Made by a program: the position numbers and the translations under genes. From assembly GCF_021283545.2 (NCBI RefSeq), contig NZ_CP128540.1:2701501-2765500 (forward strand): a DNA stretch of 64,000 nt, given 5' to 3'. Positions 21,948-62,237 of this stretch are shown here, one piece after another. This stretch comes from Pseudomonas alloputida (GTDB lineage Bacteria; Pseudomonadota; Gammaproteobacteria; Pseudomonadales; Pseudomonadaceae). Numbering within the stretch: the stretch's first letter is position 1; each line of letters opens with the position of its first letter. The notes beneath the pieces are model-generated. The model was not told where the DNA came from, ran no database searches, and saw nothing but the letters and a program-made list of their open reading frames with translations.

Positions 21948-22047
21948 GGCTTGCCCGCTAATGCGGCTGCACTGACAACGGTGATCTCCCAGGCATTATT
22001 GGCTGGCGGGTGTGGCCTATTCGCGGGTAAACCCGCTCCTACGAGGG
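21948..22047. repeat. REP pair (BIME)
   Basis: One REP (GGCGCGGGCTTGCCCGC) begins near 21948 and an inverted one (TTCGCGGGTAAACCCGCTCCTAC) ends at about 22042. They separate the convergent PACE and ilvE genes. Confidence 0.75.
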
Positions 22048-24018: not shown

Positions 24019-24133
24019 GGTGCGTCCTTGACCGTGGATAAGGCGCCACTGTAACGCACTTGCGCCCAGCGTTGTCGACCGGCCCCGCAGCAATGGTTGA
24101 CCACCCGCCAGCCACTGCGTAGCCTTGCCACTT

Positions 24134-24310
24134 CGAGGTTCTTCGGCCTGGCCGAAGCTAAGACGGGAACGCGGTACAAGCCGCGGCTGCCCCCGCAACT
24201 GTAAGCACCGACAACGGATCGACACAGCCACTGCGCCAACGCGCGGGAAGGCGTCATCCCGCCAGCCCGAACGGGGACATGGAACGGTGCAAGCCAGGAG
24301 ACCTGCCTCG
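24134..24310 (+). promoter_or_regulatory. Cobalamin (AdoCbl) riboswitch
   Basis: Closing stem P1 CGAGG (24134-24138) pairs with CCTCG (24306-24310). The conserved core CCCGCAACTGTAAGC and the 3' B12 box AGCCAGGAGACCTGCC (24292-24307) are both present in the correct order. It lies 114 bases ahead of the cobW start, so high cobalamin should switch off cobW-cobN-chlD. The expression platform is probably the GC-rich 24330-24420 stretch before cobW. Confidence 0.93.
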
Positions 24311-24424
24311 TCACGTTTTCGACTTTCAACCGGGCGGGGTGATCCGGTGGCGAACAAGCCCGGCCGGCCTGGCCCGCGGCTGTCGTCCTGCATGCCCGCG
24401 CCACACTGCCAAGGGCAATGCGAC

Positions 24425-31653: not shown

Positions 31654-32979
31654 ATGCAGCAGCCTGCCGCTCAACGCCGTTTGCTTATCGTCGACCCCTG
31701 CGACGATTGCCACCGCTTGTTACCTGGCCTGCGCAACGCAGGCTGGGATGTGGACAGCTGTATGCTCGGGGCTGCGCTGGACCACACGTGCGATGTCGGG
31801 CTATTGCGCTTGCAGGCTTCGCACCTGAGGCACCCGGACGCGGTCAAGGACATGATCAAGCGCAGCAACACCGAATGGATTGCCGTGCTCAGCGCCGATC
31901 AGTTGCGCATGCCGGCGTTCGGTGATTTTGTGTGTGAGTGGTTTTTCGACTTCCATACCCTGCCGTTCGACGTCTCCCGCGTGCAGGTAACCCTGGGCCG
32001 GGCCTTCGGCATGGCGCGCTTGCGCGGCAAGGGGGCCGTCAAGGTCGATGAGGCAACCCATGAGTTGCTCGGCGAAAGCCGGCCTATCCGCGAGTTGCGC
32101 AAGTTGCTGGGTAAACTGGCACCCACCGAATCGCCTGTGCTGATCCGCGGGGAGAGCGGCACCGGCAAAGAGCTGGTGGCGCGCACCTTGCACCGCCAGT
32201 CGCAACGCAGCGAGCAGCCGTTCATCGCGATCAACTGCGGGGCGATCCCCGAGCACTTGATCCAGTCCGAACTGTTCGGCCATGAGAAGGGCGCCTTTAC
32301 CGGTGCTCACCAGCGCAAGACCGGGCGTATCGAAGCGGCCGATGGCGGCACATTGTTTCTTGATGAAATCGGCGACCTGCCGTTGGAATTGCAGGCCAAC
32401 TTGCTGCGTTTCTTGCAGGAGAAGCACATCGAGCGGGTGGGTGGCAGCCAGCCCATACCGGTGGATGTACGGGTGCTGGCGGCCACCCATGTGGACCTTG
32501 AGCGGGCCATCGAGCAAGGGCGTTTCCGCGAAGACCTGTATTACCGCCTGAACGTCTTGCAGGTGGTGACCGCGCCGTTGCGCGACCGGCATGGTGACCT
32601 GTCGATGCTGGCCAACCATTTTGCCCATTTCTACAGCGTGGAGACCGGGCGTCGGCCACGGTCGTTCAGCGACCATGCCCTGGCGGCGATGGGGCGGCAT
32701 GACTGGCCGGGCAATGTGCGCGAACTGGCCAACCGCGTGCGCCGGGGGTTGGTGTTGGCTGAAGGGCGGCAGATCGAGGCGCAAGACCTGGGGTTGCAGC
32801 TGCTCGACCCGGAACAACAACCGCTGGGCACGCTGGAAGAATACAAGCAGCGCGCCGAGCGCCAGGCACTGTGCGATGTGCTCAACCGGCACAGCGACAA
32901 CCTGAGCGTGGCAGCCAAGGTGCTGGGCATTTCACGGCCGACGTTCTATCGGTTGTTGCACAAGCACCAGATACGCTGA
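31654..32979 (+). CDS. Sigma-54-dependent transcriptional activator (VpsR-like N-domain)
   Basis: 441 residues. Residues 1-125 form a receiver-like domain of the VpsR type, lacking the normal phospho-acceptor surroundings. Residues 140-375 form the AAA+ sigma-54 interaction domain: Walker A GESGTGKELVAR, the sigma-54 contact GAFTGA, Walker B GGTLFLDEIGDL, and the arginine-finger region. The C-terminus is a Fis-type helix-turn-helix (NLSVAAKVLGISRPTFYRLL). VpsR-like proteins often respond to cyclic-di-GMP and control exopolysaccharide or biofilm genes; this is inference. Its own targets are not evident nearby. Confidence 0.9.
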   Translation: MQQPAAQRRLLIVDPCDDCHRLLPGLRNAGWDVDSCMLGAALDHTCDVGLLRLQASHLRHPDAVKDMIKRSNTEWIAVLSADQLRMPAFGDFVCEWFFDFHTLPFDVSRVQVTLGRAFGMARLRGKGAVKVDEATHELLGESRPIRELRKLLGKLAPTESPVLIRGESGTGKELVARTLHRQSQRSEQPFIAINCGAIPEHLIQSELFGHEKGAFTGAHQRKTGRIEAADGGTLFLDEIGDLPLELQANLLRFLQEKHIERVGGSQPIPVDVRVLAATHVDLERAIEQGRFREDLYYRLNVLQVVTAPLRDRHGDLSMLANHFAHFYSVETGRRPRSFSDHALAAMGRHDWPGNVRELANRVRRGLVLAEGRQIEAQDLGLQLLDPEQQPLGTLEEYKQRAERQALCDVLNRHSDNLSVAAKVLGISRPTFYRLLHKHQIR

Positions 32980-33163
32980 GCGGCGCTCTCAAAGGGAAAC
33001 CACAAGCCCCTGTAGGAGATTCTATGGCCGGAGGCAAATTTTCAGTAAAAACGCCATCGGCCTCTCTCAGCAACCTCGAGGTACGAGTCAGCGTGCCAGA
33101 GAATTTCTCCCCAGCATTGGATACTGCCCGTCAGTTTGGGCGGGCTGCGTTGCAGCCCCAGCC

Positions 33164-34129
33164 TCAGCTGGCCGGCTTGGCACCTCCGGTATATATCTCG
33201 GGCTTCCAGTCGGCCTGATGCCTCATCAGGCCGAAGGCCAGCCGAGCCAAGCGACGTGCAAGGATCACCAAGGCTTGAGTGGTTTTCTTCCCCCGGGCTT
33301 GGTGATGGGCGTAATACTGCTTCCAGGTCGCGGTTCGACTGCCGCTCATCGAGGCGTTGTACAGGAGTCTACGGACCTCCGAGTCTCCGCGCTTGCTCAA
33401 CTTCCCTCTGCCTGCCCATTTACCGGATTGGGAAACCGTTACATCCATGCCTAGATAAGCGACAAAGGCGTCGCTGTTCTTGAACTCGCCGCGCATGAAG
33501 GACATCACCAGGCCGGCAGCCGTTAAGAAACCAACACCCGGAAGCCTCTGAACACGGCGCATCTGATCGGAAAGCCCCGCCTTCTTGATCACCGCACGCA
33601 GCTGTTTTTCCAGCGAAAGCTCTATGCGTTCGAGCACTTCCTCAACACGTTTGAGTTCTGAGGCAAACAATTTGTCGCCCGACAAGCTCATCCGCAGCAT
33701 GCCGCGCACTGCTACAAGTTTGGCGCGGCGGCGCAGCAGCACCTGGATCTCACGATGCCCGGCTGGTGGCGGAGTCCAAGCCTTCAAAGAGCCCCGCTCG
33801 TTGCTCAGGAAGCGGGCGAGCAAAGCGGCATCATGGGCATCTGTTTTTGCCCGTATAGCAACACTTTCCCGGTACTTACTCAGCCTCAGCCCATCGATAA
33901 CGTATACCGCGAAGCCCGCAGCATGGGCTTGCTCCGCCATTTCCATGTGATAGGTACTGGTCGCTTCGATGGCCAGCGCTGAGCCTTTGGGCAGCGTCTT
34001 GAGCCAGGCTTTGATTGCTTTCGGAGTGTTAGGGATGGCGAAGGATTTGGTATTCGGAGCGGCTTGAATCACCAGTTCATCTTTGGAGGTGTCCACGCCA
34101 GCTTCGATTGGGATTGCGGACATTGCCAT
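33164..34129 (-). CDS. IS110 family transposase (DEDD recombinase)
   Basis: 321 residues from ATG 34129 with AAGGAG upstream. The N-terminal RuvC-like DEDD domain shows VDTSKDELV (Asp), AIEATSTYH (Glu) and RAKTDAHDAALLARFL (Asp/Asp). The C-terminal Tnp domain carries LPGVGFLTAAGLV and the catalytic-serine region VSQSGKWAGRGKLSKRGDSEVRRLLY. The gene appears intact. These recombinases use a bridge RNA encoded in the element's non-coding end to choose donor and target sites. Confidence 0.93.
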   Translation of the reverse strand: MAMSAIPIEAGVDTSKDELVIQAAPNTKSFAIPNTPKAIKAWLKTLPKGSALAIEATSTYHMEMAEQAHAAGFAVYVIDGLRLSKYRESVAIRAKTDAHDAALLARFLSNERGSLKAWTPPPAGHREIQVLLRRRAKLVAVRGMLRMSLSGDKLFASELKRVEEVLERIELSLEKQLRAVIKKAGLSDQMRRVQRLPGVGFLTAAGLVMSFMRGEFKNSDAFVAYLGMDVTVSQSGKWAGRGKLSKRGDSEVRRLLYNASMSGSRTATWKQYYAHHQARGKKTTQALVILARRLARLAFGLMRHQADWKPEIYTGGAKPAS

Positions 34130-34160
34130 GAATAGCTGCTCCTTGTAGCGTAGTGTGACT

Positions 34161-34325
34161 TGAAGGGCACACCCTGGCGCAGGCTTGCTTCTATTGTCGC
34201 TTGCTCGCGAGGCATTCCTTATCGGCGCTTGGGTGTTGAAAGGAGGAGGGGTGATTTCTCCTACGGTCTGTACTGCGCGAACAGTCAGAAGCGAGTTATG
34301 GCCCTCCTCCTCCCTTCAAGTCCTA
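34161..34325 (-). ncRNA. Predicted IS110 bridge RNA (seekRNA)
   Basis: Two stem-loop domains lie between the element end and the transposase start. The first has a long outer stem (34302-34320 with 34236-34251) enclosing an internal loop. On the transposase strand its 5' side reads AACTCGCT (34290-34297) and its 3' side reads GTAGGAG (34258-34264). The REP target reads AACCCGCT on the left (one G-U pair) and CTCCTAC on the right, with CT as core, so the segments fit as left and right target guides. The second domain is closed by ACACCC/GGGTGT (34169-34174 with 34231-34236) and may hold donor guides (AATAGAAG resembles the element end). This is a prediction from sequence only. Confidence 0.7.
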
Positions 34326-34332
34326 CCATACA

Positions 34333-34430
34333 AGCGGGTTTACCCGCGAAAGAGCCGGGCCTACTAGCCAATGTCCACCTGCCGTTCACCATTGTCGCGG
34401 CTACCGTATTCGCGGGTAAACCCGCTCCTA
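34333..34430. repeat. Inverted REP pair, one half interrupted by IS110
   Basis: The right half of the IS-interrupted REP (34333-34358) and an inverted REP (TTCGCGGGTAAACCCGCTCCTA, about 34409-34430) form a BIME-like pair. The second REP also breaks off before its expected CAGG end, at a sequence that resembles an IS terminus. Confidence 0.75.
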
Positions 34431-34508
34431 TGTATGGACTCGCCCACACTGTCTAGCTGCTTTTTTGAACATAGGAAGTAAGCGTCCGCCCAACTCACCT
34501 TGCGTAAG

Positions 34509-36044
34509 TTAGGCAGGCACCCACTGATGTGGCAGCAGCTGCCCGATCTCACTGGCCCGCTGTGTTGGCAACCGAGTTAGCACATCTTTGAGATAGGCAT
34601 ACGGATCATGCCCATTCATACGCGCCGACTGGATCAGGCTCATGATTGCAGCGGCCCGTTTACCACTGCGTAGCGACCCGGCAAACAGCCAGTTCGAGCG
34701 CCCGAGTGCCCAGGGCCGTATCTGGTTCTCGACCTGGTTGTTGTCGATGGGCACAGCCCCATCGTCCAGGTAGCGCGTCAGCGCTACCCAGCGTTTCAGG
34801 CTGTAATCGAGGGCTTTAGCCGTGGCTGATCCGTTGGGCACCAAGTCGCGCTGGGCCAACATCCAGTCATGCAGTGTTTTGAGGATTGGCACCGCCATTT
34901 CCTGACGTATTCGCCAACGATCTTCATCACTCATGTCCCGCGCTTGGCGTTCGACCTCGTACAAACCGCTGATCGAGTGCAGGGCCTGTTCAGCCAGCTG
35001 GCTTTTATTCGCTACGTGCAGATCAAAGAACTTGCGACGGGCGTGGGCCATGCAGCCGATTTCAGTGATGCCTTGCTCAAAACCGGCTTTGTAGCCAGCG
35101 AAGTCATCGCAGACCAACTTACCGTTCCAGTCGCCCAGGAAGTTGCGCGCATGTTCGCCAGCACGGCTTGGGCTGAAGTCATAAACCACCGCGCTGAGCG
35201 CCGAAAACGGCGTCGTGCTGTAGGCCCAGACATAGGCCCGGTGGGTTTTCTTCTCGCCCGGCGCAAGCATTTGCACCGGGGTTTCATCAGCGTGAATCAC
35301 GCCCTGGTTCAGCACCGCTTCACGTAGTGCATCGACCAGTGGCTGGAGTCGCACACCGGTTTGTCCGACCCACTGGGCCAAGGTCGAGCGAGCAATCGCC
35401 AGCCCGGCGCGGCCAAAGATTTTCTCCTGCCGGTACAGCGGCAAGTGATCGGCAAACTTGGCCACCATCACATGGGCCAGCAAGCCTGCGGTCGGGACAC
35501 CTTTGTCGATAACCTGCGCCGGTACCGGCGCCTGGATCAGTGTTTCGCACTGACGGCAGGCCCATTTGCCACGCACATGATGCTCGACCGTGAATACCCC
35601 TGGCGTGTAATCCAGCTTCTCGCTGACGTCTTCGCCGATGCGTTGAAGTTGGCAGCCACAGGCGCATTGGGTGTTTTCGGGTTCGTGACGAATCACGGTA
35701 CGCGGAAACTGCGGCGGCAATGGTGCACGTTTGGGCGATTGCCGTGGCTCGGCCTGTGACGAAGCGGGAAGAAGCTGTTTCAGCTCGGCCTCGATAGCTT
35801 CAAGGTCTGTATCGAGCAGGTCGTCCAGCAAGCTGCCTTGCGCCGGGCTGATTTGCTCGCTGCGCTTGGCAAACTTGTGGCGTTTGAGCAGGGCGATTTC
35901 GAACTTGAACTGCTCGATGAGGATTTCATCGTTCTGGATCTTTTTGCTCATCGCCTCGACCTGAGACTGCAACTGCAACGCCTGTGCCGCCAAGGCACGA
36001 AGCTGTTCCGGGGTCATCTGGTCGAGATTGGGCGAGAAAGTCAT
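34509..36044 (-). CDS. tnpC: IS66 transposase TnpC
   Basis: 511 residues from ATG 36044 (MTFSPNLDQMTPEQLRALAAQALQ). An N-terminal leucine-rich coiled region and a zinc-finger-like CACGC…C…CRQC segment are followed by the DDE domain with HADETPVQMLAPGEKK, DDFAGYKAGF and the DDGAVPIDNNQVENQIRPWALGRSNWLFAGS block. The length fits full IS66 TnpC proteins. It is the last of three co-directional IS66 genes. Confidence 0.94.
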   Translation of the reverse strand: MTFSPNLDQMTPEQLRALAAQALQLQSQVEAMSKKIQNDEILIEQFKFEIALLKRHKFAKRSEQISPAQGSLLDDLLDTDLEAIEAELKQLLPASSQAEPRQSPKRAPLPPQFPRTVIRHEPENTQCACGCQLQRIGEDVSEKLDYTPGVFTVEHHVRGKWACRQCETLIQAPVPAQVIDKGVPTAGLLAHVMVAKFADHLPLYRQEKIFGRAGLAIARSTLAQWVGQTGVRLQPLVDALREAVLNQGVIHADETPVQMLAPGEKKTHRAYVWAYSTTPFSALSAVVYDFSPSRAGEHARNFLGDWNGKLVCDDFAGYKAGFEQGITEIGCMAHARRKFFDLHVANKSQLAEQALHSISGLYEVERQARDMSDEDRWRIRQEMAVPILKTLHDWMLAQRDLVPNGSATAKALDYSLKRWVALTRYLDDGAVPIDNNQVENQIRPWALGRSNWLFAGSLRSGKRAAAIMSLIQSARMNGHDPYAYLKDVLTRLPTQRASEIGQLLPHQWVPA

Positions 36045-36107
36045 GCCGCCGATTGTGCCAGACCAGGCGCGATGCGACGACAAGCAGACCGGTCAAATGG
36101 CCGGCGA

Positions 36108-61731: not shown

Positions 61732-62237
61732 TGAACACACAACGTGCAGTCATCTGGGCCGGCTTCCTCGGCGTGAGCGCGGCGCTGGCCTGGGCACCGG
61801 ACCATTGGTTTGGCCAGGACGATGGCGTCGCGGCCTTCGCGGGTAAACCCGCTCCTACAACAGAAAGCGCTGCGTCCATTGTAGGCGCGAGCTTGCCCGC
61901 GAAAGGGCCGGAACAGGCCTCCCGCGACCTGTTCCCAACCCAGCAATGGACCCAACCCAAAACCCTGGCCACGGTCACCGAACAACCCGTGATGACCGCA
62001 CCTGTCGTCGCCGCGGCCCCGACGGCCCCGGAACTGCCTTTCCAGTTCATCGGCCGCATGGGTGACCGCGACGACCTGCAGGTCTTCCTGCAGAGCGGCG
62101 AAAAACTCTACGTCGTGCGCCAAGGCGACGTGATCGAAGACACCTATCGCCTCGATCGGGTATCGGCCAACGAGCTGAACCTGGTCTACCTGCCTTTGCA
62201 CCAGTCGCAGACCTTGTCTGTCGGGAGCGCACCATGA
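61731..62237 (+). CDS. GspC/PilP-like protein with a REP-encoded linker
   Basis: 168 residues from ATG 61731 (GTG 61728 is also possible). One membrane helix (AVIWAGFLGVSAALAWA), then a linker whose residues about 34-60 are encoded by a REP pair (DDGVAAFAGKPAPTTE … GASLPAKGPEQ). The C-terminal domain (LPFQFIGRMGDRDDLQVFLQSGEKLYVVRQGDVIEDTYRLDRVSANELNLVYLPL) matches the homology region of GspC and PilP that contacts the secretin. Its stop overlaps the secretin start. Confidence 0.8.
   Translation: MNTQRAVIWAGFLGVSAALAWAPDHWFGQDDGVAAFAGKPAPTTESAASIVGASLPAKGPEQASRDLFPTQQWTQPKTLATVTEQPVMTAPVVAAAPTAPELPFQFIGRMGDRDDLQVFLQSGEKLYVVRQGDVIEDTYRLDRVSANELNLVYLPLHQSQTLSVGSAP
61832..61911. repeat. REP pair inside the GspC/PilP-like gene
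   Basis: An inverted REP (GGCCTTCGCGGGTAAACCCG… from 61832) and a second REP (TGTAGGCGCGAGCTTGCCCGC… from 61880) lie wholly within the coding frame, between the membrane helix and the periplasmic domain. The frame is kept. Confidence 0.92.

Follow-up and report, generated by a model that had tools for sequence, protein, structure and literature searches.

An IS110-group element inserted in a REP of Pseudomonas alloputida and the bridge RNA predicted in its left non-coding end

REP-inserting IS110 elements and the Pseudomonas alloputida locus

The bridge RNA of IS621 directs insertion into the REPs of E. coli (144 of 173 sites; PMC11208160), and the right donor guide of this RNA pairs with donor positions 8-11 (PMC11208160, PMC11208158). 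Insertion of ISPpu9 and ISPpu10 into REPs was reported in 2006 (PMC1525189). The guides of ISPpu10 (LTG, RTG, LDG and RDG) were already predicted and shown in 2024, according to the legend of Extended Data Fig. 10 in PMC11208160. The end of ISPpu9 yields regulatory RNAs, which include an abundant antisense RNA (PMC8450116). ISPa11, an element of the IS1111 group that targets the REPs of P. aeruginosa, is found among the seekRNA elements. Their RNA carries two short guides, as does the one predicted here, with the difference that in the IS1111 group it is located downstream of the transposase, with the guides in reversed order (PMC11187229).

The window, a stretch of 64,000 nucleotides of P. 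alloputida contig NZ_CP128540.1 (positions 2,701,501 to 2,765,500), carries an IS110-group insertion element on its minus strand (33017..34334). With the whole element as DNA query, six identical copies are found in the 6.44-Mb single-contig genome, and their differing flanks break at these ends. Two bases, CT, are common to both ends of the element (33017-33018 at the right end, 34333-34334 at the left end). In the orientation of the transposase strand, the unoccupied site is ...TTCGCGGGTAAACCCG-CT-CCTAC... and the element is CTTGTATGG...GGCCATAGAAT(CT). The interrupted REP is accordingly found in two parts on the minus strand, TTCGCGGGTAAACCCG (34335..34350) and CTCCTAC, core included (33012..33018). 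The same REP base is hit by all six copies (ttcgcgggtaaacccg-CT-cctac). Since an intact partner REP, an exact match in inverted orientation, lies nearby (34414..34430, plus strand), the original target was a REP doublet. The insertion is like that of ISPpu10 of P. putida KT2440, an IS110 element that splits the P. putida REP between bases 9 and 10 (PMC1525189). The element ends, the CT core, the restored REP, the non-coding end and the two loop segments discussed below were all located where the sequence-only reading of this DNA had placed them.

Two more REPs of the window (22025-22041 and 61841-61857) carry an unoccupied target, GGGTAAACCCGCTCCTA. An ORF of 524 aa (34509-36083, minus strand), which we take to resemble an IS66-type transposase, begins about 80 bases past the partner REP, so that two different elements stand side by side around the doublet. 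A cobalamin riboswitch (24119-24324, plus strand, 105 bits) is also encoded in the window.

The transposase/recombinase (321 aa; 33164..34129, minus strand) has a DEDD domain and a C-terminal Ser domain, matched above cut-off by PF01548 (N-terminal DEDD) and PF02371 (C-terminal), respectively. This composition, non-coding ends of which the upstream one is the longer (205 nt versus ~146 nt downstream of the transposase) and a CT core that is present at either end next to short ATA/TAT repeats in subterminal position (ATAGAAT-CT-TGTAT) are traits of the IS110 group and not of IS1111. The nearest solved structures are the transposases of IS621 (E 7.4e-23) and ISCro4, the similarity to IS621 being only distant (84.5 bits). 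D13, E55, D97, D100 and S235 are aligned to identical residues of IS621 and are presumably the catalytic ones. Named protein relatives above 70% identity are from Pseudomonas, among the matches listed. The element is probably a relative of ISPpu10 and not the same IS, because its transposase shares 53% identity with an Alcanivorax protein that bears the name ISPpu10 transposase. A search of the plasmid collection gave no match at 1e-40.

Target guides and predicted fold of the RNA

The left non-coding end very probably encodes a bridge RNA whose two guides set the homing of this IS110-group element to REPs. The basis of this reading is the anatomy of the element, the predicted fold of the RNA, its complementarity to the target and the covariation between guides and targets. 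The organization is similar to that of IS621 in that the RNA is encoded in the left end (LE), that the target loop precedes the donor loop, that the core is CT and that REPs are the targets (PMC11208160, PMC11208158). The likeness extends to the strands read by the two target guides, to the position over the core of the right donor guide proposed here and to the putative handshake base.

The left target guide AACTCGCT (34290..34297, minus strand) pairs with the bottom strand of AACCCGCT and the right target guide GTAGGAG (34258..34264, minus strand) pairs with the top strand of CTCCTAC, which is the complementarity of LTG to the bottom and of RTG to the top target strand known from IS621. The guides flank a hairpin-bearing loop on its two sides. 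The claim that both segments can pair with the REP with a single G-U pair was borne out: the pairing scores 14.5 of 15, a value above that of every one of 1500 CT-centred sites picked at random from the window on either strand (mean 10.9) and of 1000 dinucleotide-shuffled versions of the RNA, the maximum being 14.0 in each set. IS621 has likewise a non-Watson-Crick pair in its LTG; the differences are that the right guide can pair here with 7 nt and that the target is a Pseudomonas REP. The G-U pair is in line with the sites available in the genome, because AACTCGCTCCTAC, the match of the left guide without this pair, occurs only twice in the element's own genome (G000). An extra mismatch, U opposite A at target position -7, is found just beyond the 8 nt of the left guide. 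Opposite the core, the two guide bases read CT in no more than 14 of the 125 insertions compared in the next section. The right guide is identical in reading to the head of some Pseudomonas REPs. As REP families with a consensus starting with GTAGGAG or GTGGGAG are tabulated in PMC2817692, this guide would read the REP head (GTAG/GTGG), with single-base differences where the REPs of the hosts differ.

Folding delimits a predicted bridge RNA core of 162 nt (34159..34320, minus strand), and the fold of 34130-34330 (-80.6 kcal/mol) is far more stable than that of shuffled sequences (z -4.9). Single-sequence folding was carried out for 41 of the 43 unique left ends of the element and its relatives, its own included (L008 and L118 were skipped). 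The closing stem P1, formed by a 5' arm CUUGAAGGG (34312..34320, minus strand) and a 3' arm CCCUUCAAG (34159..34167, minus strand), encloses both loops and is predicted in all 41. The target-binding loop (34241..34311, minus strand) is predicted to be held by a stem of 34302-34311 with 34241-34250 (40 of 41) and to bear the terminal hairpin UCUGAC...GUACAGA (34267..34289, minus strand; 38 of 41). The donor-binding loop domain (34169..34236, minus strand) has its outer stem in 41 of 41. The long stem that the sequence-only reading had drawn around the target loop, 34236-34251 with 34302-34320, stands in its inner part, which is the target-loop stem; its outer part, 34312-34320, belongs to P1 and closes the whole RNA.

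The two predicted stem-loops with internal guide loops, the target loop first, are those of the IS621 type. Where IS621 has a 5' stem-loop ahead of the target loop, a stem enclosing both loops is predicted here. Note that, because bridge RNA structures are diverse (PMC11208160, legend of Fig. 6), the lack of a 5' stem-loop excludes the layout of IS621 only. The RNAalifold consensus of 40 left ends is weak (-18.5 kcal/mol) and lacks the complete target stem, whose register differs between two subtypes as aligned. The CUUG and CAAG of P1 are invariant across the 40 aligned sequences, so that the support for the stems comes largely from conservation and from the folding of single sequences. When the RNA is folded free, 5 of the 8 bases of the left guide are predicted to pair with bases of the right guide, so that the target loop is not predicted to be open without DNA or protein and would have to open for DNA. 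Rfam gave no match in the element region at gathering score.

The non-coding end is found directly upstream of the transposase start, a position that also suits a mainly regulatory leader, namely a 5'-UTR hiding the ribosome site combined with an antisense RNA, in which the REP-like segments would be incidental. The precedent is ISPpu9 (Asr9, Ssr9), a REP-inserting IS110 element that resembles the present one in its structured end, transcribed in ISPpu9, and in the AG/CT repeat at the insertion, and whose 5'-UTR is described as long and structured, with Asr9 as a stable antisense RNA (PMC8450116). That regulation is the main role of the end studied here is nevertheless very improbable. Incidental segments would not co-vary with their targets or hold the loop order of IS621. 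The leader given for ISPpu9, an element that also has extra ssr9 modules, measures 244 nt (PMC8450116) and is too long for the 205 nt present here. Moreover, a simple scan of 32950-34500 on both strands detected no promoter-like or terminator-like site. The regulatory and bridge RNA roles might coexist and, by analogy, an antisense RNA like that of ISPpu9 could be the main product of this end too.

Covariation of guides and targets among relatives

Relatives of the element were found in 40 of the 298 genus genomes searched, its own genome included. The 133 matches comprised the six own copies (L001-L006) and 127 others, of which 120 were fetched and 7 left out. A scan of genome contigs gave two distant loci only (L007 and L008), bringing the number of oriented loci to 128. 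Both ends, CTTGTATG and ATAGAATCT, are present in 126 of them, L090 and L113 being without the left-end motif. The guide loop was recognisable in 125 loci (L007 is without guide anchor), and these 125 insertions come from 39 sources, namely 38 genus genomes and the distant L008.

The right half-site is CTCCCAC in 111 insertions, CTCCTAC in 13 (six in G000, six in G094 and one in G254) and CTCTCAC in one. Left halves include AAGCTCG, AGGCTCG, AAGCCAG, AGCCGCC and AAGTTCG, and the guides follow: guide and own target both read AAGCCAG in G296, AGCCGCC in G080 and AAGCCGG in G070, while G094 has guides TAGTTCG and GTAGGAG for targets AAGTTCG and CTCCTAC. When 40 source-by-guide units are compared, the LTG scores 6.01 of 7 with its own target versus 5.17 with swapped ones (sd 0.10), a value equalled in 0 of 10,000 permutations. 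The RTG scores 6.966 versus 6.896 (sd 0.012), with 12 of 10,000 permutations as high. These contrasts persist after collapse to 17 guide types (left 0, right 76 per 10,000 permutations). The guide register (shift 0) was picked from the same data, which raises the absolute guide scores; in the permutations, own and swapped pairs were scored in one common register. The better fit of own over swapped targets is the covariation across homologous elements, also a trait of the IS621 type, that the sequence-only reading had named as the check on a target-binding loop of bridge RNA design, and it supports that design.

The RTG signal rests on two origins because variation of the right target is confined to nearly one base. 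On the transposase tree (39 rows, one short row dropped) the GTAGGAG guide has two separate origins, each with CTCCTAC targets. Among phylogenetically independent pairs, defined with the two commonest target letters per position, the guide shifts with the target or shows no difference, the mean of opposite changes being 0.0 at the seven left-target (LT) positions; at LT position -7, a few single random pairings have one opposite change, and not one independent pair has a guide that followed its target. Independent pairs are few, and none of the sign tests, among those listed, reaches 0.05.

Insertion of the same loop at unrelated sequences, which would have spoken against guiding, is rare. The left-guide score, with a one-base shift allowed, is at least 5 of 7 in 121 of the 125 insertions; the four below it are L008, L097, L098 and L139, of which L098 alone is clearly unrelated on the left. 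The right-guide score is 7 of 7 in 117 insertions, 6.5 in 2 and 6 in 6 (G080), and is below 6 in 0 of 125. The CTCCTAC insertion of G254 (L151) has a GTGGGAG guide and thus a G-T pair. The left flank of L098 (G186) has no relation to the guide and its right half is perfect, reflecting either a rearrangement after insertion or an off-target event.

A minimal pair is formed with a relative in G465 that is 92% identical (locus L164, placed outside the permutation tests and the tree). Its left guide AACTCGCT and left target (aaacccg) are unchanged. On the right side the target is CTCCCAC (CCCAC for CCTAC) and the guide is GTGGGAG for GTAGGAG. The same change of right guide and target is found in G009 (73-74% identity), a draft genome of ~80 contigs. 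The sequence AAACCCGCTCCTAC occurs 212 times in G000, 2 times in G465 and 0 times in G009, and AAACCCGCTCCCAC occurs 4, 51 and 22 times, respectively. The commonest REP variant matches the guide in each of the three genomes, as expected if the agreement of guide and target reflected merely the supply of REPs and the shared descent of host and element. In G000, guide selectivity is not separable from supply because of the 212 CCTAC sites versus 4 CCCAC sites. Supply explains where an element lands, not why the matching base is found in the RNA loop, and GTAGGAG evolved twice on separated branches, which makes it very improbable that supply and descent account for the agreement.

Proposed donor guides, a possible junction promoter and possible retargeting

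Two donor guides of the bridge RNA are proposed by analogy to IS621. The left one, AAGGAAT (34214..34220, minus strand), has 5 matches, one G-T pair and one mismatch to the donor top strand ATAGAAT, and the CAAG of the right one (34184..34194, minus strand) would pair with the CTTG of core plus LE. Among relatives, AARGAAT and CAAG fit the donor, but donor ends hardly vary and therefore provide no covariation test for these guides. The putative handshake base of the target loop is the A after the right target guide (34257, minus strand), opposite donor T7, a combination present in 125 of 125 insertions. Its counterpart in the donor loop is the C after the right donor guide (34183, minus strand), opposite target G7. 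The combinations observed are C/G7 in 113 insertions, G/C7 in 6 (all from G080), U/C7 in 4 and U/G7 in 1, the motif being absent in one of the 125 (L008). The handshake base co-varies with the target in G080. By analogy, the donor loop and the handshake base fit the IS621 model. A TACAAG beside the ribosome site (34140s), considered as a right donor guide overlapping the Shine-Dalgarno, is unconserved in relatives of ~50% identity and was dropped, the conserved CAAG inside the donor loop suiting the IS621 scheme better.

After excision, the joined ends (...ATAGAAT-CT-TGTATGGT...) would unite a -35-like and a -10-like hexamer, and the RNA would be transcribed. The joined ends form TTGCCT-17-TATGGT, which is weak by consensus and missing at the inserted end. 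The best -35 in 41 units has 3 to 5 of 6 bases at the junction versus 0 to 3 at the inserted left end, and that of the junction starts with TTG in 17 of the 41. Such an arrangement of hexamers suits a circle-only promoter and does not prove it. On the model of IS621, the bridge RNA would bind the recombinase, its second loop would pair with the element's own joined ends and the recombinase would then swap strands at CT. REP homing would thus be set by the two target guides, of 8 and 7 nt.

REPs are palindromes and GTAGGAG is the REP head, but it is scarcely credible that the transposase protein alone recognises the REP palindrome or sequence and that the guide-like segments are captured REP fragments: a captured fragment is expected to be contiguous, whereas the two halves are separated here by a conserved loop, in IS621 order, the left one oriented as in the REP and the right one running the opposite way; the outer REP arm normally present on the left side is missing from the L058 and L061 insertions; and right guide and right target differ jointly between transposases that are 92% identical.

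The guides of the bridge RNA offer a molecular reason for the REP homing of Pseudomonas IS110 elements described in 2006. Such a direct reason had been put forward in the sequence-only reading and is supported here, although it is not the first, IS621 being earlier (PMC11208160) and the guides of ISPpu10 having been predicted. The mechanism is the known IS110 bridge RNA mechanism and not a new one; the present analysis adds the test of covariation, the minimal pair together with the REP counts of the hosts, the stem around both loops and the co-change of the handshake base. No literature title on co-variation between guides and host REPs in Pseudomonas is present among the matches listed. The 40 source-by-guide units and 17 guide types constitute a natural series of matched guide-target variants, which could serve as ready-made bridge RNAs and as a test of natural retargeting. 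We see evenly balanced chances that the IS110 lineages of Pseudomonas retarget through one- or two-base changes of the bridge RNA, following the turnover of host REP families; if they do, the guide would be a readable record of the REP family that prevailed at the time of the element's spread.

Copies of the two element ends border the ssr9 modules of ISPpu9, which are transcribed in the same sense as tnp and whose orphans are described outside REPs (PMC8450116). These modules look like transposase-free bridge RNA elements, an idea that we offer tentatively. For solo modules of the orphan-ssr9 kind, the joined-end pattern gave 0 matches in 164 loci and two matches in 398 genomes, neither beside a bridge RNA module, and the whole-element DNA query gave only the six full copies and no solo module in the own genome. 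In G129 (L166, near 1501), right-end sequence is found in both orientations beside a REP, without transposase or bridge RNA, and is perhaps a scar of the element.
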